Positions 533-14,025 of a DNA stretch of 64,000 nt are shown here, one piece after another (position 1 is the stretch's first letter; each line of letters starts with the position of its first letter). The stretch lies in the NCBI GenBank assembly GCA_002706765.1, contig PAJV01000016.1, forward strand, positions 250,148 to 314,147, in the 5' to 3' direction. Origin of the DNA: Gimesia sp. (lineage in GTDB: Bacteria; Planctomycetota; Planctomycetia; Planctomycetales; Planctomycetaceae). Below the pieces are notes generated by a model that did not search any database, was not told where the DNA came from, and was given only the letters and a program-made list of their open reading frames with translations. Both the position numbers and the translations under genes were made by a program.

Positions 533-3500
533 ATGGAAGGAAAAGGAAGCGGGGGAATGGCGATGGTATGTGCCTGTGATTCGGTAACAGGGAATGACGA
601 GGGTTTATGGCACAGAGGGAGACTGCTTTCTCTCAGTGGATTTCTCCAGTTGAGTCTCTGCCTGATTCCCCTGACGGCAGCGGAACCAGAACAGCCAGAG
701 ACCAGTCGCCCCCCCGAAGTCATAACGCTGTATGAGCCGGGAAGGCTGGGCGGACATGGTGCCTCGCTGCATCGCGTCACGATTACAGGCACGGCGCGGA
801 ATACGGACGGTAAACCGCTCAAAGATGCTGACATTTATGTTGCCAGTCGAGGCTGGATTACCCCAGGCGATTTTGAACAGCTGCGCGGTCATACCCGCAG
901 CGATGCGAACGGACATTATGAACTCAAAGACGTTCAACTGTTTGTCATCAACAATCGCGATCCCCACTCGCGACCCGACGAGAGTGACTTCATCGTCTTC
1001 GGCACGAAAGAGAATTATGGCCTCACCTGGCATCCTGCCCGCAATTATCGCCCCGCCGCGCGTCCTGAAAAAATCGATGGTCGGGATCGAAACAGTCACG
1101 CCGCGAGAAATGCCTTCTATCAGAATGAACCCATTGTCATCGATCTGCAGTTTGATGCGCCGGCAAAACTGAGAGGCGTCATCACCGACAAGCAGGGACA
1201 TCCCCTGGCAAACGCGAAAGTGCAGTTGGGACACGTTGATCGCTCACTCACTCCCACTCCGAACAGAACAGGTTTCTGCCGATATCTCAAACAGGAAAAC
1301 CCTTATTTAAAACAGATCGATTCATTCCTCAACTTTTCCGTAGTCCCTTCCTCAGTGCGTGAAACCTATACCGACGCACAAGGACGCTACGAATTCACAC
1401 AACTCCGCCGCGACACCAGTTATGCAGCGAATATTGATCCGGGGCTTGAATTTGCTCCCTGGCAATTCACCCTGATGACGGCTGATCAATCTCGCACCTC
1501 CCCGGATACAGTCGCCACTGGTTATGATGGTGAATTGAACCATCAGTTTACTTCTCCCCGCGATGTCACTGTTCACGTTGTTCAAAGTGATTCAGGGCGA
1601 CCGCTTTCAAATGTCCTGGTAACAGCACATCATATCGGAGAAGTACTACGCAGTGGCATCCAGGCACGCACAGACAGCCAGGGAAACGCACAGCTCAGGC
1701 TCATCCCCGATGAATACAAACTGGTGGCCGAGCCCAATCCGGACCAGCCCTTTCTGTATTTGAGCCAGCAGTATTTTGTTCCGAAACGAGAAGCTTCTGG
1801 AGGGAAAGACACCCCCAACGTCACTATGAAACTCAACCCGGCGGCGATTGTCAAACTGAAAGCCATCAATGCCAAAACGGGTGCCCCCATTCCGGGAGTC
1901 CGCTTCAATTACGAGACTTATGACGCGGGAGAACAGACCCCGGTCTCCACACAGACCGTTTATGTCGATTATCCTTTTACAAACGCTGCCGGAGAAATCC
2001 AGGCTTTCATGGAACCGGGCATGCGACGTTTTGTTGTCACCGAACCGTTCTCGCTGGCACAGGCAGAAGGCAGTCGCTCTGAACGCGTCAAACTAACAGC
2101 GGGTCAGGTCACGGAAGTCACAGTCAAATTGACGCCAGCAGATTTTCTGCCCACACATCTGGTCGCCAGCGAGATACAGCCTCGTAAAAATTCGCTCTAC
2201 GCTCCCGAGATTCAGAAGAAGTGGCACATTCAGTCAGAACTGCTGCGGCTCACTCCCCTGCGGATCACCACACGCAAAGCCTCAATCTATCGAGGCTCCG
2301 TGGATACAGATAACCTGCTCAAAGATTTACGCGCACTGGATCCTTACGAAGTTCCCGATATCAAAGCGTTGCTTAACAGGTATTACTCTGGTGAAACAGC
2401 CTGGAACAAACAGGTGCTCACAGCCCATGGCACTCTCAAACATGAAGCCCGCTATACGAACACAGATTCAAAGCCCCCACATTACTTCAATCTGTCAGGT
2501 CAGCCGTTGCCCAGTATCACCAGCATGACCGACGGCTGGAAAACCATTCACCACCAGAGCATGAGTAATCAGGCACGGATTAACCCGATCAGAAAAGGAA
2601 AAATCCATTTCCATGTTGAATCTCCCTACGATATATGCGACTGGCCTTCCCTGCGCAATCGGATTCCTGCCCCGCCCAACAGCAAAAAACCCGAGGCCGA
2701 TATTCGCCGCGAAGGACAGAGAATCTTTTATAGTGGAGAAAGCGAGAAAACCGTTTACCGTCGCGTGCTGGATGAGGAAACCGGTTTTATTTTCGAAACG
2801 TTTCACGGGTCCCCGTCTCATCAGTTCGAACAAGTCAAACTGTCCTTCGCCCCGAAGACGCTGGCCAACGGCCTGATCCTGCCTGGAATGCATATCAACT
2901 GGAAGACGTATCAGGGAAAATTACAGCACCTGGATGCAACTCTGATCGAAAAGGCAGAAATCCTCTCGCCGGTTCCCGTCGACGCCTTTTCGATTGCCTT
3001 GCCCGCGGGAGTGGAGGTCGTTGATTCCCGCCACCTGCCTGACAATATCAGCTATATCGCAGGCAATCATGCTTCTAAGAAGATCTTGTATGGACCGGTC
3101 AGCGATTTCGCCGCTTACCTGCTACGGAATCCCTACTACAGCCACGAAATGGAAACGGAGCCGCAACTCGGCAGACACACCCCCACTCTGGAACCAGCAC
3201 TCTGGTTGACGGCGGAAGGAAAATCAGCAGCACCCATCTTAAATGGAAAAGTAGCTCTGATTCACTTCTGGGGAACCCGGAATGCCAACAGCCTGGACCA
3301 GTTGTCTGAAATGAAAACCGCATATAAAAAATATGTAGATCAACCTGTGGTTCTCATCGGCCTGCATGACTCCTTTACCTCAACCTCTCAACTGCAGGCT
3401 GTTGCGGAACAGCAGGACCTGAAATACATACTGGCCATTGATCAACGTCCTGAAGAAGCAGGCTGGTTCGGCAAAACCATGCAGCACTTTCGCATACGAG

Positions 3501-3604
3501 CCTTGCCCCAGGCTGCAGTCATTGATCAACAGGGGAATCTGACTTTCATCGGCGATCTTCCACAGGCTCTGCAGAAAGTAGAGCAGCTGCTGGAACGCGA
3601 TTGA
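533..3604 (+). CDS. Exported carboxypeptidase-regulatory-like protein with a degenerate thioredoxin domain
   Basis: The protein has up to 1,023 residues. Near the N-terminus is a hydrophobic stretch ending LIPLTAAEPEQ, a likely signal peptide. The start could be 533, 557 or 563; GGAAGCGGGGGA just before 557 favours a downstream start. The body has several CarboxypepD_reg-like beta-sandwich segments, for example TGTARNTDGKPLKDADIYV and TDKQGHPLANAKVQLG. The last ~120 residues are a TlpA/thioredoxin fold (FWGTR, then a conserved Pro in ALPQAAV). The redox CxxC is replaced by N-A-N-S at residues 917-920, so disulfide chemistry looks lost. The next gene is a tandem paralogue that keeps CGPC. Probably a periplasmic or surface protein; the substrate is unknown. 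Confidence 0.85.
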   Translation: MEGKGSGGMAMVCACDSVTGNDEGLWHRGRLLSLSGFLQLSLCLIPLTAAEPEQPETSRPPEVITLYEPGRLGGHGASLHRVTITGTARNTDGKPLKDADIYVASRGWITPGDFEQLRGHTRSDANGHYELKDVQLFVINNRDPHSRPDESDFIVFGTKENYGLTWHPARNYRPAARPEKIDGRDRNSHAARNAFYQNEPIVIDLQFDAPAKLRGVITDKQGHPLANAKVQLGHVDRSLTPTPNRTGFCRYLKQENPYLKQIDSFLNFSVVPSSVRETYTDAQGRYEFTQLRRDTSYAANIDPGLEFAPWQFTLMTADQSRTSPDTVATGYDGELNHQFTSPRDVTVHVVQSDSGRPLSNVLVTAHHIGEVLRSGIQARTDSQGNAQLRLIPDEYKLVAEPNPDQPFLYLSQQYFVPKREASGGKDTPNVTMKLNPAAIVKLKAINAKTGAPIPGVRFNYETYDAGEQTPVSTQTVYVDYPFTNAAGEIQAFMEPGMRRFVVTEPFSLAQAEGSRSERVKLTAGQVTEVTVKLTPADFLPTHLVASEIQPRKNSLYAPEIQKKWHIQSELLRLTPLRITTRKASIYRGSVDTDNLLKDLRALDPYEVPDIKALLNRYYSGETAWNKQVLTAHGTLKHEARYTNTDSKPPHYFNLSGQPLPSITSMTDGWKTIHHQSMSNQARINPIRKGKIHFHVESPYDICDWPSLRNRIPAPPNSKKPEADIRREGQRIFYSGESEKTVYRRVLDEETGFIFETFHGSPSHQFEQVKLSFAPKTLANGLILPGMHINWKTYQGKLQHLDATLIEKAEILSPVPVDAFSIALPAGVEVVDSRHLPDNISYIAGNHASKKILYGPVSDFAAYLLRNPYYSHEMETEPQLGRHTPTLEPALWLTAEGKSAAPILNGKVALIHFWGTRNANSLDQLSEMKTAYKKYVDQPVVLIGLHDSFTSTSQLQAVAEQQDLKYILAIDQRPEEAGWFGKTMQHFRIRALPQAAVIDQQGNLTFIGDLPQALQKVEQLLERD

Positions 3605-3714: not shown

Positions 3715-3741
3715 ATTGAAGTGACTTCGAGGAGATCTGGA

Positions 3742-6700
3742 ATGATTCAACTTTTCACCACTGGGATGGGATCGCTCATCAACTTTCAAAGAACAATATA
3801 CCTGCTGGCAGGACTGAATCTGGTTTTCTGCTTTTCCTCTCATCTTGCGGCTGCAGAGCAATATAACCCGAAGAAGATTTCCATAAATCAAGTGGCCCTG
3901 GCTCCTGAAAAAGTCAAAACAGAAAACTCCCGGCAGCAGCAGCCACCGGCTTCACGGCCACCAGAAGTCGAAATTCTAAGATCGTTAGAGGATGGAGCCG
4001 GGCACGGCACTGAATTACATCGAGTCACAATCACGGGAACCGCTCGAAATACGGCGGGAGAGCCAGTCAAAAACGCTGAGATTTATATAGGGACCTCTGC
4101 CAGCCACCACCCCAGTAATTTTGAATTATTGCGAGGTCAGACTCGCACAGATGAAACTGGATATTATGAACTGAAAGATATCCAGTTGCTCGTCAACCGA
4201 GAGCGGCCTAACCCGATCCCCAGGCAGGCGGAAGGAGGCTTTGTGGTGTTTGGTACCTGTAATGGATATGGCTTCACCTGGCACGCAACATGCCAGTATC
4301 GTCCCGACGTACGACCGCAGGGAACAGAACTGGGAGATAAAAACGCTAACGTGACGGACCAGGCGTTTTACAAGGGGGAACCAATTAAAGTGGATCTGCT
4401 GTTTGAACCTCCCGCTCAAATCAAAGGTCGCATCACAGACAAACAGGGGAATCCCCTGGCCAATACTAAAGTCCAACTGGGGCTGGTCGATAGCCTGCGC
4501 AACCCCAATAGCTCAGGAATCCGTTCCTGTCGTTTTCTCGGAAATGAAAATCAACCCGTCGGTAAACCTGTTACCTTTGCTGCAGTTCATATGCTCCCTG
4601 CAGAATTCCGGGAAACCAGGACCGATGCGGAAGGCTATTACGAATTAACCGGGCTTCGTCGTGATACCAGCTATCTGACAAACATTGACCCCGGTCCCAC
4701 TTTCACCCCCTGGCAGCTTCGACTGGCAACTACCGGGGAACAGAAGATCGATAACAGTAGAACAATCTACGTGGAATATGACGGTATTTTAAACAAAGAG
4801 TTCGATGCACCTCGACAGATCACAGTGCAGGTCGTTGAGGAAAAAACAGGAAGGCCTGTTGCGGATGTACTGGTGACAGCCTCTCCCCTTCGCCAGATTC
4901 GACGAGGCGGACTGCAGGCACGTTCGGACAGCCAGGGGAATGCCTTGCTGCAACTCGGAACAGGCGAATATACGCTCATCGCAGAGCCAACTCCGATTCA
5001 ACCTTTTTGCTTTCAGGAGCAGAAGATTTCAATCCCGGAAGATCCAGGTGAAGTACAGCTGACGCTCAAATTAAAATCCGCGGCGATTGTGAAACTCAAA
5101 ACCGTCAATGCAGAAACCGGGAAACCGATTTCCGGCATACGCTTTCTCTATGAAACCGATTCATCCAGCCAGCAGTTTCCGCTTTCCACCCAAACCGTTT
5201 TCATTGACTACCCTCAAACCAACTCAGCCGGTGAACTGCAGGCATTTGTTGCTCCCGGCAGGAAACGGTTTATTGTCGCGGAACCGCTCACGCTGGCACA
5301 GGCGGAAAACAGTCGTGGAGCGATTTTGGATCTTACCGGAGGCGAAGTTGTCGAAGTCGTGTTCAAGCTGACTCCACCTCAGTTTCTGCCTGACCACGTA
5401 TTTGCGGGTGAACCAGAGCCCGACCAGGACTCTATCTACACTCCAGACCTGCAACTTAAATGGCATCATCAATCTGAATTACTCCGAAATTCTAATCTGC
5501 AGATTGCCACGCAATATACTCTGATCGTTCGAAAACCGATCGACCCTGACTCGCTACTGAAAGATCTGCGTGCCCTGGATTCTTACCAGTTGCCTGAGAT
5601 TGAAAAACTGCTGAAGCAACACCAGGTGGAAAATGTGAACTGGTCTAAGAAACGGTTAACAGCCCAGGGAAAGATTTATCGGGAGGAAAACTATTATTCG
5701 CCTGAAGTCACTCCAACGATACTCTCCAGTCGAGACGGAACTCCATTGCCCCAATCCATCAACCTGACGGATGGCTGGAACACCCAGAGATATAATATCA
5801 ACAACAGTCAGGCAAACATCTCTCGCCATAGTATGATTCACATCGATTCGCCGTACGATCTCTGTAACTGGCCCGCTCTCCGGCGTCGGCATACTGAATC
5901 CGGTGAAACAGAAAAGCCTGAATTTAATATTCACCAGAAAGGCCAGCGGACCATTTATGAAATCAAGTCAGAGCGGTATTCCCAACGTCGTGTCTGCGAT
6001 CAGGAGACTGGCTTCATCTTTGAGGACTCCACTGATATTCGTTCATCCAACTATCAACGTGTCTCGCTATCTTTTGCACCTCAAAAATACGCAAACGGGC
6101 TGATACTACCACGCATGTTTCTCAGTTGGACCACTTCAAACGGTAAACTGCGTCTTCTGAGAATATTTAAAATTGAAAAAGTCGAAATCCCCCTTCAACT
6201 GGCTGCAGACGCTTTCTCCATTCCATTACTGCCGGGAACAATGATTGTCGATTCTCGTCACATTACACGTAATGCATCCCGATCAAGGCCCGTACGAAGA
6301 ATTCAGTCTGTCCTGAATGGACCTGTGAGTGACTTCGCTGCCTATATGCAACGTCATCCTCCCCGGATCCCCAAACAGGAAAGTATTATCGAATATGGAA
6401 AACCGGCCCCCGAGTTAAAAGTATCACGATGGTTCACTTCAAATGGGGAGACTGAAGCACCCGACTTAAAAGATAAAGTCGTACTCATCGAATTCTGGGG
6501 AACTCGCTGTGGCCCCTGCATTGCACAACTGCCTGAAGTCCGCACCGCTGCCCGCTACTATGCTGACGCCCCCCTTGTTCTCATCGGTATACATGACAGT
6601 TATGCTTCTGTTTCTGACTTACAGAAATTTGCAAAGAAAGAAAACATCAATTATCAACTCGCCATCGACCAGCCATCAACCGAGAAAGGCTGGTTTGGTC

Positions 6701-6840
6701 AGACCATGCTCAATTTCGGTGTCCGTGGCATCCCCCATGCTGCGGTCATCGACCAGCAGGGAAACCTCTCCTATGTAGGATATTTTTCAGAAGCGCTGCG
6801 CACCGTGGATCGTCTGCTCAAAAAGGGCGAACAGAAATAA
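3742..6840 (+). CDS. Exported carboxypeptidase-regulatory-like protein with active-type TlpA thioredoxin domain
   Basis: I chose the ATG at 3742 because GAGGAG lies 7-8 bases upstream; an in-frame GTG at 3721 is a weaker alternative. The 1,032-residue protein begins with a signal sequence (LLAGLNLVFCFSSHLAAAE). It has the same layout as the upstream paralogue: repeated CarboxypepD_reg-like segments such as TDKQGNPLANTKVQLGLVD, a long central region, then a C-terminal TlpA-like domain. That domain keeps FWGTRCGPC (Cys codons at 6508 and 6517) and the cis-Pro motif GIPHAAV. It should be an envelope thiol-disulfide protein tethered to sandwich domains. The pair clearly arose by tandem duplication. 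Confidence 0.88.
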   Translation: MIQLFTTGMGSLINFQRTIYLLAGLNLVFCFSSHLAAAEQYNPKKISINQVALAPEKVKTENSRQQQPPASRPPEVEILRSLEDGAGHGTELHRVTITGTARNTAGEPVKNAEIYIGTSASHHPSNFELLRGQTRTDETGYYELKDIQLLVNRERPNPIPRQAEGGFVVFGTCNGYGFTWHATCQYRPDVRPQGTELGDKNANVTDQAFYKGEPIKVDLLFEPPAQIKGRITDKQGNPLANTKVQLGLVDSLRNPNSSGIRSCRFLGNENQPVGKPVTFAAVHMLPAEFRETRTDAEGYYELTGLRRDTSYLTNIDPGPTFTPWQLRLATTGEQKIDNSRTIYVEYDGILNKEFDAPRQITVQVVEEKTGRPVADVLVTASPLRQIRRGGLQARSDSQGNALLQLGTGEYTLIAEPTPIQPFCFQEQKISIPEDPGEVQLTLKLKSAAIVKLKTVNAETGKPISGIRFLYETDSSSQQFPLSTQTVFIDYPQTNSAGELQAFVAPGRKRFIVAEPLTLAQAENSRGAILDLTGGEVVEVVFKLTPPQFLPDHVFAGEPEPDQDSIYTPDLQLKWHHQSELLRNSNLQIATQYTLIVRKPIDPDSLLKDLRALDSYQLPEIEKLLKQHQVENVNWSKKRLTAQGKIYREENYYSPEVTPTILSSRDGTPLPQSINLTDGWNTQRYNINNSQANISRHSMIHIDSPYDLCNWPALRRRHTESGETEKPEFNIHQKGQRTIYEIKSERYSQRRVCDQETGFIFEDSTDIRSSNYQRVSLSFAPQKYANGLILPRMFLSWTTSNGKLRLLRIFKIEKVEIPLQLAADAFSIPLLPGTMIVDSRHITRNASRSRPVRRIQSVLNGPVSDFAAYMQRHPPRIPKQESIIEYGKPAPELKVSRWFTSNGETEAPDLKDKVVLIEFWGTRCGPCIAQLPEVRTAARYYADAPLVLIGIHDSYASVSDLQKFAKKENINYQLAIDQPSTEKGWFGQTMLNFGVRGIPHAAVIDQQGNLSYVGYFSEALRTVDRLLKKGEQK

Positions 6841-7219: not shown

Positions 7220-7972
7220 ATGCTTGTGTTATCACGCCGCGCAGATCAGAAAATTGTGTTCCCCTCAATCGGTGTCACAGTCAAACTGCTCAAAATCAAT
7301 CGGGGAGTCGCTAAAGTCGGAATTGACGCCCCACGCGATCTTCAGATTCTTCGTGAAGAAATCCCTCACACCAAATTACCATCGCCGCATGCTGATGCCT
7401 CGGCTGGTTCGACCAGGGCTTCAGACCGCCATGAATTACGAAACCGTTTGAATGCAGCCAAACTGGGCGTGCATCTCGCACGTCGTCAACTTCATTCCGG
7501 CGATACTGAGAAAGCAGCTGATACACTCGACTTCGTGATCGACGGCTTTCGCAAAGCAGACGATCTGATGTACGCCATGCAGACCCGACGCCAATCAGCC
7601 CTGCTGGTAGATGACGACTGCAACGAACGAGAACTGCTGGCAGCATATCTGAAAACATTCGGCTTTCAGGTTGAGACAGTGGGCAATGGATCGGAAGCGT
7701 TAGCTTACCTGGAAAACCATGCATTACCTGATGTCGTCCTGATGGATATGGTGATGCCTGTCTGCGATGGTGCCACTGCGATCAAGTCGATTCGCGAGAC
7801 TCCTAAAATGCGGGAACTGAAAGTCTTTGGAGTCAGTGGCACAGAACCGAGAGACTCTGGTGTGTCAGTCGGTCCTGCAGGCGTGGATGGCTGGTTCATG
7901 AAACCCCTCGATCCGGAAGAACTGCTGGGCTGTATCCGGTCTGCCAATCTTTCCGCATCGGTCACACTCTAA
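7220..7972 (+). CDS. CsrA domain fused to a response-regulator receiver
   Basis: The 250-residue protein starts with a full CsrA/RsmA-like domain (residues 1-48: MLVLSRRADQKIVF ... APRD ... ILREEI), including the REEI end that contacts RNA in known CsrA proteins. Residues 71-120 form a helical linker starting HELRNRLNAAKL, which resembles the H-box of a HisKA dimerisation domain. Residues 126-245 are a CheY-like receiver with acidic cluster D131-D133, phosphoacceptor D176 (LMDMVMP), S206 and K228 (FMKPLD). Normal CsrA is only ~60-70 residues and stands alone, so this is a fusion that could make RNA binding phosphorylation-dependent. GGAAAGG lies upstream of the ATG. The neighbouring CheBR hybrid kinase is convergent and is a candidate partner. 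Confidence 0.9.
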   Translation: MLVLSRRADQKIVFPSIGVTVKLLKINRGVAKVGIDAPRDLQILREEIPHTKLPSPHADASAGSTRASDRHELRNRLNAAKLGVHLARRQLHSGDTEKAADTLDFVIDGFRKADDLMYAMQTRRQSALLVDDDCNERELLAAYLKTFGFQVETVGNGSEALAYLENHALPDVVLMDMVMPVCDGATAIKSIRETPKMRELKVFGVSGTEPRDSGVSVGPAGVDGWFMKPLDPEELLGCIRSANLSASVTL

Positions 7973-11930: not shown

Positions 11931-12633
11931 AACCTCTGTCCCATCTCTCTGAGTCGATGATATAAACCCGCTCTGTTATGATTGTTACACTGACTCCCCA
12001 AGCGTCAAGCCGACCATTTGTCATGTAAATATTCTGATTCATTCAGCAAATCAGATCATTTCCACATATAGCAGGCCAATCTGTCGGATCGTTATGCAGT
12101 TTTGTCGCACCCGTAGAGAGAAAGCCCCTTCGATTCAGTTTAGTCCCTGTATTCAGCACTGCACCGTATCCTGATTTTGCGAACAACCAGAGTCTGATCA
12201 CGACAATGAGACTGGCCGTTTTACGGGAATATGTCCAAAGCCATTTGGACCGAATACATTCGTTCGAGAAACACGAAGGTCAAATGCGATGCGTTCTAAG
12301 ATGTCACCGCGGAACTGATTTCTCTCTGTTCTCATACCTCACAGGTGCAACAACGCACTGAGATTTCATGCAAGTGCAACATTCCGCTGATCATGAAACA
12401 ACCGAACAGGAACTGGAATGCAACCGTTGACTTAACACGATTCTGTAACAGAATCCCGTTCCGCAGGATTTGTCGCTTCTACTTAAATAGTGTAGACTGC
12501 GTGCAGAATCCCGGGAGAGTGCCTCGTTTTTCACTCCGGGATGACAGCGAACACCAGACGAAATTAACTGTTTATCAGCCGGAAACAGATCCCCGCGCAT
12601 CTGAATTCCGTTGAATGGAATGGATACAATCAG
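11931..12633. other. Long divergent intergenic region upstream of the CheBR hybrid and mgtE
   Basis: About 700 bases lie between divergent genes. The only distinct structure I see is a 17-bp palindrome near 12439 (listed separately). The short ORFs here look like chance. No M-box or other magnesium riboswitch was recognised upstream of mgtE, though one cannot be excluded by eye. Confidence 0.45.
12439..12455. promoter_or_regulatory. 17-bp palindrome, candidate operator upstream of mgtE
   Basis: GATTCTGTAACAGAATC is a perfect 8-bp inverted repeat around one central base, of a size typical for a dimeric repressor site. A possible -35 (TTGACT, 12427-12432) begins 12 bases upstream, so the palindrome would cover the spacer and -10 zone. 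The pairing with mgtE is by position only; the start codon is about 180 bases downstream. Confidence 0.35.
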
Positions 12634-14025
12634 ATGAATCAGCCGGATGAACCAACAGAAAACCTGGCAGTCGAACAGCCTGATGCCTGGGAACAGCTGG
12701 AGCAGATCGTCGCCGCCGGAGACCCGGATGCCGCCCATACGTTTCTGAAGGAACTCCCTCCCGGCGAAGATGCGCGAATCATGGCGCAGCTGTCGGAGAC
12801 GGAGCAGCATGAGTTTATCGCTTTGCTGGATGATGAAAACGCCGCACGGCTGATGGAGTCGCTGCCGGAGATGCAGGCCGGTCAACTGCTTTCCAGCTTG
12901 CCTCCCGAACAGGCCGCTCACATCTTTGACGAGATGAACAGTGACGAGCAGGTCGACCTGCTGGATCAGCTCACCGAAGCCCAGTCGGAAGCCATCCTGG
13001 AAGAGATGGATCCGGAAGAAGCCGAGAACGTTCGTTTTCTGTCCAAGTACAATCGGCTTTGTGCCGGGGGCTTGATGATCACCGAACTGCTCTCCTTCCA
13101 GGAGACGGAAACGGTGGACGATGTCGTTTCCGATCTCCGTAAGAATGCCGAGAAGTACGCCGAGTACAACGTGCAATATATTTATGTCATCAACGCCGAT
13201 CTGCAACTGGTGGGCGTACTGCGACTCCGCGATCTGCTGATGGCACCGCCGGGCCGCAAGCTTTCCAGAATGATGATCGCCAATCCACACAGTTTTCCCG
13301 ATATGACCCCGCTTCAGGACCTGTTGCATTTTTTCGATGCCCACCCGCTGTTTGGTCTGCCTGTCGTCGATGAAAACAAGGTCCTGGTCGGCGTCGTCCG
13401 TCGCGAAGATGTCGAAGCCGCCAGCGAAGAACTGGCTGGAAAAACGTTCCTGCGATTCGCGGGGATTATGGGCGGGGAAGAACTCCGCAGTCTGCCTCTC
13501 AAAACGCGCAGCGCGCGGCGTCTGTCGTGGCTCAGTATTAATATCCTGTTGAATATCGTCGCCGCGAGTATCATCGCCATGTACGAAGAGACGCTCTCCA
13601 GCGTGATCGCGCTGGCGGTGTTCCTGCCCATCGTATCCGACATGAGTGGCTGCAGCGGTAACCAGGCCATCGCGGTCAGCACGCGCGAACTCGTGCTCGG
13701 CGTCATTCGCCCCAGCGACTGGCTGCACGTCTTCCGCAAGGAATTCGGACTGGGAATTGTCAACGGCCTCGCACTCGGCATTTTACTGGGAGGGGTCGCT
13801 TATATCTGGAAAGGCAATGCCTACCTGGGCCTGGTCATCGGCGGCGCGCTGGCGTTAAACACGCTGATGGCGGTCTGCCTGGGTGCGTTGATTCCCCTGC
13901 TGCTGAAAGGCTTCAAAATGGATCCCGCCCTCGCCTCCGGCCCGATCCTGACCACCCTCACCGACATGTGCGGCTTCTTCCTCGTCCTCTCCTTCGCCCA
14001 GGCCCTGCTCCCCTGGCTGATTTGA
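12634..14025 (+). CDS. mgtE: Magnesium transporter MgtE
   Basis: The 463-residue protein matches the MgtE layout. An acidic N-terminal superhelical domain is built of repeats such as LMESLPEMQAGQLLSSLPPE. Two CBS domains follow (around residues 140-265, ending VVDENKVLVGVVRRED). The C-terminal channel domain has about five membrane helices; SDMSGCSGNQAIAVSTREL holds the conserved region that lines the Mg2+ path in known MgtE. In this family the cytosolic domain closes the pore when Mg2+ is high. Length is normal (~450). A long antisense ORF overlaps it but is a codon-bias shadow. Confidence 0.95.
   Translation: MNQPDEPTENLAVEQPDAWEQLEQIVAAGDPDAAHTFLKELPPGEDARIMAQLSETEQHEFIALLDDENAARLMESLPEMQAGQLLSSLPPEQAAHIFDEMNSDEQVDLLDQLTEAQSEAILEEMDPEEAENVRFLSKYNRLCAGGLMITELLSFQETETVDDVVSDLRKNAEKYAEYNVQYIYVINADLQLVGVLRLRDLLMAPPGRKLSRMMIANPHSFPDMTPLQDLLHFFDAHPLFGLPVVDENKVLVGVVRREDVEAASEELAGKTFLRFAGIMGGEELRSLPLKTRSARRLSWLSINILLNIVAASIIAMYEETLSSVIALAVFLPIVSDMSGCSGNQAIAVSTRELVLGVIRPSDWLHVFRKEFGLGIVNGLALGILLGGVAYIWKGNAYLGLVIGGALALNTLMAVCLGALIPLLLKGFKMDPALASGPILTTLTDMCGFFLVLSFAQALLPWLI

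Follow-up and report, generated by a model that had tools for sequence, protein, structure and literature searches.

A candidate phosphorelay ending on a CsrA-receiver fusion protein in planctomycetes

A protein in which CsrA is joined to a receiver through a linker with a conserved histidine, here called CsrA-REC, was found to recur across a class of planctomycetes. We propose that a phosphorelay of this class ends on CsrA and would set its binding to mRNA without a CsrB-type sRNA or FliW, that the protein would be self-controlled through a hairpin with a GGA loop in its own leader, and that one clade may have shortened the relay to a direct His-Asp transfer in which the kinase lost its receiver and the CsrA protein lost the histidine H71. 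For this proposal in full, the odds appear to us to be even. The gene was noticed in a 64,000-nucleotide stretch of DNA from Gimesia sp., referred to as the window, and the features discussed are collected in Table 1. The partner kinase and the leader hairpin, both absent from the original prediction, give the idea much of its weight.

Table 1. Positions in the window of the CsrA-REC gene, its parts and its neighbours
Feature	Position	Strand	Basis or description
CsrA-REC gene	7220-7972	+	open frame, ATG start, 250 aa
Leader hairpin just 5' of the start codon	7200..7219	+	stem TTTGGG/CCCAGA (one U-G pair), loop AAAGGAAA
CsrA domain, residues 1-48	7220..7363	+	Pfam PF02599, 47.9 bits, cut-off 27
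Variable tether, residues 49-68	7364..7423	+	alignment columns gappy and unconserved
DHp/HisKA-like helical hairpin, about residues 69-118	7424..7573	+	profile-profile match to HisKA; conservation
H71	codon 7430-7432	+	in the DHp-like hairpin
Receiver (REC), about residues 127-241	7598..7942	+	Pfam PF00072, 70.5 bits, cut-off 30.2
D176, receiver phosphoacceptor	codon 7745-7747	+	in the REC domain
Convergent neighbour, CheB-CheR-PAS-HisKA-HATPase-REC hybrid kinase, 1251 aa	8175..11930	-	Pfam domains

The CsrA domain and the receiver named in the original prediction were both recovered above the Pfam cut-offs, and the numbers that it gave to H71 and D176 agree with the codons listed. The Response_reg match spans residues 128-238 and, as had been claimed, the catalytic set of the receiver is complete (D131, D132, D176, S206 and K228). 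RNA-contact residues in the CsrA part are L4, R6, R7 and R45, the last of which corresponds to R44 of E. coli with an offset of one residue. The protein has a CsrA domain yet is not an equivalog of CsrA by NCBIfam TIGR00202, where it scores 39.2 bits (cut-off 70.1). No family for a CsrA-REC fusion was observed among the best 25 of 90 NCBIfam matches, and the best 60 of 196 matches to solved structures fall around the receiver with none in the CsrA part. Pfam found no HATPase domain within the 250 residues, so the protein is not classed as a histidine kinase. Furthermore, the gap between hairpin and receiver is about 10 residues, which is too short for a degenerate ATPase-like domain and places the protein outside the Spo0B/ChpT type. 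The genome holds 11 CsrA matches; apart from the one in CsrA-REC, they are all found in short frames (66 to 134 codons from stop to stop). Elsewhere in the window, positions 533-3604 and 3721-6840 encode tandem, similar proteins of 1023 and 1039 residues which, judged by eye, end in what looks like a thioredoxin-like domain. A 445-residue open frame at 12391-13728 on the minus strand is antisense to a gene at 12634-14025 and is probably spurious.

Four genomes of the genus contain full-length homologues with 58-59% identity, and outside the genus there are more distant ones. A search of the class gave matches at E up to 1e-35 in 100 of 397 genomes (63 of 185 genera), two of which (G618 and G695) match only outside the CsrA part. 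In an evenly drawn sample of the phylum, searched with a narrower query, 16 of 392 genomes were matched, all of them from the same class or closer. At least 80 loci were returned by a scan of named genomes; thirteen among those listed (L029-L040 and L042) encode CsrA-linker-REC, twelve being titled as planctomycetes (for example Lacipirellula limnantheis, Gemmata sp. and Isosphaera sp.) and one only as 'bacterium'. Among 288 genomes of the phylum of an Opitutae record and 297 of the phylum of a deltaproteobacterial record, where 8 or 9 candidates per genome were scored, and among 13 other genomes, none of the matches listed extended into the CsrA part. Partial matches in these three sets came from one, one and three genomes respectively and covered the query only from position 82 onward. 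The collected neighbourhoods and the named-genome loci together gave a family set of 125 CsrA-REC frames, 123 of them distinct, and this recurrence across the class rules out the isolated assembly error that the original prediction had allowed for, as it does a chance fusion.

Highly conserved residues were observed in all three parts of the 123 proteins. In the CsrA part R6 is present in 122, R45 in 121 and L4 in 102, and in the receiver D132 and D176 are each present in 122 and K228 in 120. Most of the linker varies; its conservation peaks at three positions, L77 (113), H71 (107) and N75 (106). The position after H71 is D or E in 48 of the 123 only and, as this acid is unconserved, H71 may differ chemically from a kinase histidine. 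The catalytic set of the receiver is intact in 119 proteins overall, which include all 107 of the H71 carriers and 12 of the 16 members that lack H71. Four members (L144:5950-6819, L266, L267 and L269) have lost both H71 and receiver catalytic residues and look like cases of decay.

The linker is related to the HisKA (DHp) hairpin, as the original prediction had suspected from its resemblance to a kinase dimerisation H-box. Compared with Pfam HisKA (PF00512), the window linker scored 13.6 and 14.2 bits, below the cut-off of 26.9, and among ten family linkers SPOB_a was matched in two and HisKA in four, all below cut-off, so Pfam alone cannot settle the DHp class. When a profile of 107 family linkers was aligned with one of 91 HisKA segments taken from the kinases in the loci of the family, hhalign gave a score of 46.5 and set HELRNRL over HELRNPL, with H71 on the catalytic histidine of HisKA. 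The best of 100 column shuffles reached 14.2 and the reversed profile 10.4; circularly shifted profiles, which keep long stretches intact, scored up to 45.7, near the original, and are useless as a control. By this match, with H71 in the catalytic place, the linker is a hairpin of the DHp type without an ATPase domain. A canonical HPt domain was rejected, no Pfam HPt match being found in the window linker or in the ten family linkers. TPR and SPOB_a were likewise rejected as the identity of the linker because their matches, in some of the ten, were scattered, weak and all below cut-off.

The hybrid kinase that converges on the CsrA-REC gene is proposed as the donor of the relay. In 88 of the 123 cases a kinase frame was found no further than 1 kb from the CsrA-REC gene, on either side and in all relative orientations. 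CheB/CheR domains are present in 63 of these 88 kinases and the full CheB-CheR-PAS-HisKA-HATPase-REC set in 54. The other 35 genes have no kinase within 1 kb, which counts against a relay; 11 of them have one at 1 to 3 kb, and for 26 of them at least 3 kb of sequence is available on both sides. Three places in the window genome match the partner kinase at E up to 1e-60, one of them being the convergent neighbour. In a comparison of 40 relatives, a kinase 71-72% identical to this neighbour and a CsrA-REC at 58-59% were found in the same four. Genome G018 has a kinase at 49% identity and no match reaching the CsrA part, and is therefore a case of a similar kinase without the fusion, while in G026 the best kinase lies on a different contig from the CsrA-REC gene. 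By motif scan alone, a simple phosphoacceptor motif was observed in 81 of 99 C-terminal kinase receivers.

The phosphate of a hybrid kinase finishes up on the receiver within that same kinase, and onward transfer calls for another histidine. We observed that the presence of H71 goes with the presence of such a receiver. Of the H71 carriers, 79 have a near kinase: the receiver is fused to it in 75, is encoded by a separate frame no more than 300 bp away from it in four and is missing in none. For the nine H71-less members with a near kinase, the nearest kinase has no receiver in seven cases, a separate one in one and a fused one in one. H71 against a fused receiver gives a Fisher p of 6.6e-8, a value uncorrected for kinship. 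Both forms occur together in eight loci. In seven of these (L140, L229, L252, L253, L254, L257 and L260) the kinase closest to the H71 copy carries a receiver, and that closest to the H71-less copy does not. In the eighth (L232) neither copy has a kinase within 1 kb, and the single HisKA-HATPase frame observed there has a receiver. Pairing with the nearest kinase is an assumption here, since additional kinases and receivers are present in the arrays that contain both forms. Together with its conservation in the family, this association lends comparative support to the suggestion in the original prediction that H71 is a phosphotransfer residue.

Several loci show other arrangements of these parts. 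Of the four H71 carriers whose near kinase has a separate receiver frame, three (L221, L222 and L224) have that frame between the kinase and CsrA-REC, and the fourth is in L207. In L221, L222, L224 and L141 a kinase, an unfused receiver gene (two in L141) and the gene for CsrA-DHp-REC stand in a row, which is like a split version of the relay with an unfused first receiver. The kinase and receiver of L207 lie in two overlapping frames, probably owing to a frameshift. In L140, L253 and L254, and similarly in L252, two CsrA-REC genes stand around three CheB-CheR-PAS proteins. Kinase domains were not found in one of the three proteins of the L140, L253 and L254 arrays, which look like duplicated signalling modules.

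The kinship of the H71-less proteins was followed on a quick tree from which the linker was left out. Of the 16, ten fall in one group with a support of 86 (not a starred branch), which contains all seven cases nearest receiver-less kinases. Position 71 in this group is S, R, L, N, A or T, and two members, L257 and L260, no longer have the hairpin. The H71-less proteins require at least six changes on the tree, three of them forced by starred branches. For the link between kinase receiver and H71, two independent pairs are supported (three if all branches are used), which are too few for significance; of the supported pairs, on average one was as expected, none was opposite and one did not differ. 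In this comparison the correlation is carried mainly by one clade and does not reach significance once corrected for kinship.

The model that we consider best, with a probability of about 0.6, is a His-Asp-His-Asp relay which ends on D176 and would retune CsrA. The neighbouring CheB-CheR-PAS hybrid kinase would autophosphorylate on its HisKA histidine and pass the phosphate to its own C-terminal receiver, from where it would move to H71 in the DHp-like hairpin and on to D176. Having no ATPase domain, the hairpin would act as a phosphotransferase in the manner of Spo0B or ChpT and would also help to dimerise the chain, which fits because CsrA itself is a dimer (PMC7652899, excerpt). Phosphorylation of D176 is expected to alter the packing of the receivers on the CsrA dimer, and this in turn may change, in either direction, how tightly CsrA holds GGA-loop hairpins at Shine-Dalgarno sites, including the one in its own leader. 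The domains, their conservation, the kinase linkage, the kinship of the hairpin with HisKA and the covariation of the leader arms are shown here, and from them we infer each phosphotransfer step, the RNA binding and the effect of phosphorylation.

The kinase might instead phosphorylate D176 directly, as in an ordinary two-component pair, with the hairpin kept as a dimerisation spacer from a kinase ancestor. Direct His-Asp transfer is plausible for the H71-less members nearest receiver-less kinases, which keep intact receiver residues, and the unconserved acid after H71 would also agree with it. A spacer, however, would have no need to keep H71 and N75 in more than 100 of 123 proteins when the linker is variable over most of its length, and the H71-less clade displays what relaxed constraint looks like. 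For each of the 79 H71 carriers with a near kinase there is also a receiver from which H71 could take phosphate. We regard the direct pair as unlikely. A reverse role for H71, in which the hairpin drains phosphate from D176 or an N75-based phosphatase resets the CsrA receiver, seems quite improbable. Phosphorelays are generally reversible, and N75, kept in most of the family, is at H+4, the phosphatase position of HisKA proteins; by itself, however, such a role leaves the association of H71 with the receiver of the neighbouring kinase unexplained.

It is very improbable that the CsrA domain no longer binds RNA and is only a dimerisation cap for a signalling receiver, as its score below the NCBIfam equivalog cut-off might suggest. 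The strong conservation of L4, R6 and R45 and the covariation of the leader hairpin described below stand against this, and L4 and R44 have been named particularly critical RNA contacts of CsrA (PMC7652899, excerpt).

The loop of the leader hairpin holds both the Shine-Dalgarno sequence and a GGA, and the window leader folds at -6.5 kcal/mol over 29 nt; some leaders in the family fold weakly, one at only -0.8 kcal/mol. In one gene of the family, L140:4870, the leader was taken from CTC, an unusual start codon. Among 94 family representatives under 70% identity, a GGA occurs at the right place in 88. A stem of at least three Watson-Crick pairs can form around it in 52 of these 88, compared with 61 of 277 other genes of the same loci, and the pattern GG-N2-5-GGA-N0-4-CC was observed in 53 of the 94 leaders and in 12 of the 277 controls, which are the longest non-overlapping frames with an ATG picked for having a GGA before it. 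When the arms were re-paired between genes, a mean of 36.0 was obtained against the observed 52 of 88, with none of 2000 draws as high. The same was seen at the 55% level (33 of 60 against 23.8 expected; 7 of 2000 as high) and at the 45% level (24 of 37 against 14.3 expected; 0 of 2000 as high). As real pairing exceeds that of re-paired arms, the arms of the leader match each other within genes, that is, they covary.

These features suggest that the leader hairpin is a candidate CsrA-type autoregulatory site, and csrA of E. coli is autoregulated by translational inhibition (PMC7652899, excerpt). With 11 CsrA matches in the genome, the hairpin could also be read by another CsrA copy. Five of eight leaders of stand-alone csrA genes in the same genome allow a stem of 3 or 4 pairs around a GGA, and the GG-GGA-CC pattern of the family is absent from all eight. 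A genome-wide search with the strict motif as a fixed pattern found two places, the CsrA-REC gene itself and one coiled-coil gene. The latter (L276; G000:C4:98743-98762, minus strand) has the hairpin GGGAAAGGAATCCC, whose loop contains GGA and which immediately precedes a long coiled-coil gene that by eye sits downstream of a thioredoxin-like gene. In a comparison of 14 genomes of the genus, with two further loci starting at a contig edge left out, this hairpin is identical in 13, including that of the window, and differs at a single base in the remaining one, whereas the flanking sequence diverges. It is likely to be a conserved CsrA target. Its retention also in genomes that yielded no CsrA-REC means that it is uninformative about CsrA-REC in particular. 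Leaders of kinase and CheB frames gave the pattern before some possible start in 13 of 130 frames; as these include starts far inside the frame, no signal is claimed.

CsrA is known to be controlled by FliW. It has also been described as a global regulator controlled by sRNAs that compete for it (PMC7652899, excerpt). The stand-alone CsrA/RsmA proteins (PF02599, TIGR00202) resemble CsrA-REC in the N-terminal 48 residues, in the contacts L4, R6 and R45 and in the leader, where the GGA-loop hairpin suggests autoregulation as for csrA; CsrA-REC differs from them in carrying 200 further residues with phosphotransfer and receiver domains. Spo0B is a DHp phosphotransferase that works between receivers and keeps a degenerate ATPase-like domain. 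ChpT is a pseudo-kinase phosphotransferase with a degenerate ATPase-like domain (PMC9981736, excerpt), and its phosphotransferase role is also given in PMC3433190 (excerpt). Both share with CsrA-REC a DHp-like hairpin with a phosphoacceptor histidine placed between the receiver of a hybrid kinase and a final receiver. They are separate proteins, whereas the hairpin of CsrA-REC has no ATPase-like domain and is fused to CsrA and to the final receiver. CsrA-REC may thus work like ChpT and its target receiver in one chain without belonging to the ChpT family.

ANTAR is an unrelated antitermination domain and has no DHp hairpin, and E. coli CsrA has no receiver. The ANTAR response regulators PdtaR, AmiR and NasR are like CsrA-REC in having an RNA-binding output in two-component signalling (PMC12471899, excerpt). 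E. coli CsrA is named an orphan response regulator in the same excerpt (PMC12471899), an entry that for the reason just given looks like an error. In the BarA-UvrY-CsrB/C-CsrA cascade a two-component kinase also ultimately controls CsrA (PMC7652899, excerpt); control there is indirect, via sRNA transcription, whereas here the receiver lies within the CsrA chain. No CsrA-receiver protein was described in the titles and abstract openings among the papers listed in our literature searches, and surveys of output domains may mention the bare architecture. The word CsrA is absent from the main text of a survey of two-component domains that includes 20 Planctomycetes (PMC4558063), and the main text of a review of the CsrA family in Pseudomonas has none of 'fusion', 'fused', 'receiver' or 'Planctomycet' (PMC7366521).

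If the relay to D176 is correct, control of translation would be a direct output of two-component signalling in these bacteria, one reached through a relay rather than in a single step. The relay and direct forms found side by side in seven loci would then make up a natural series for the shortening of a phosphorelay. Furthermore, the arrangement suggests how a genome with as many CsrA matches as this one could address one copy to one sensor.
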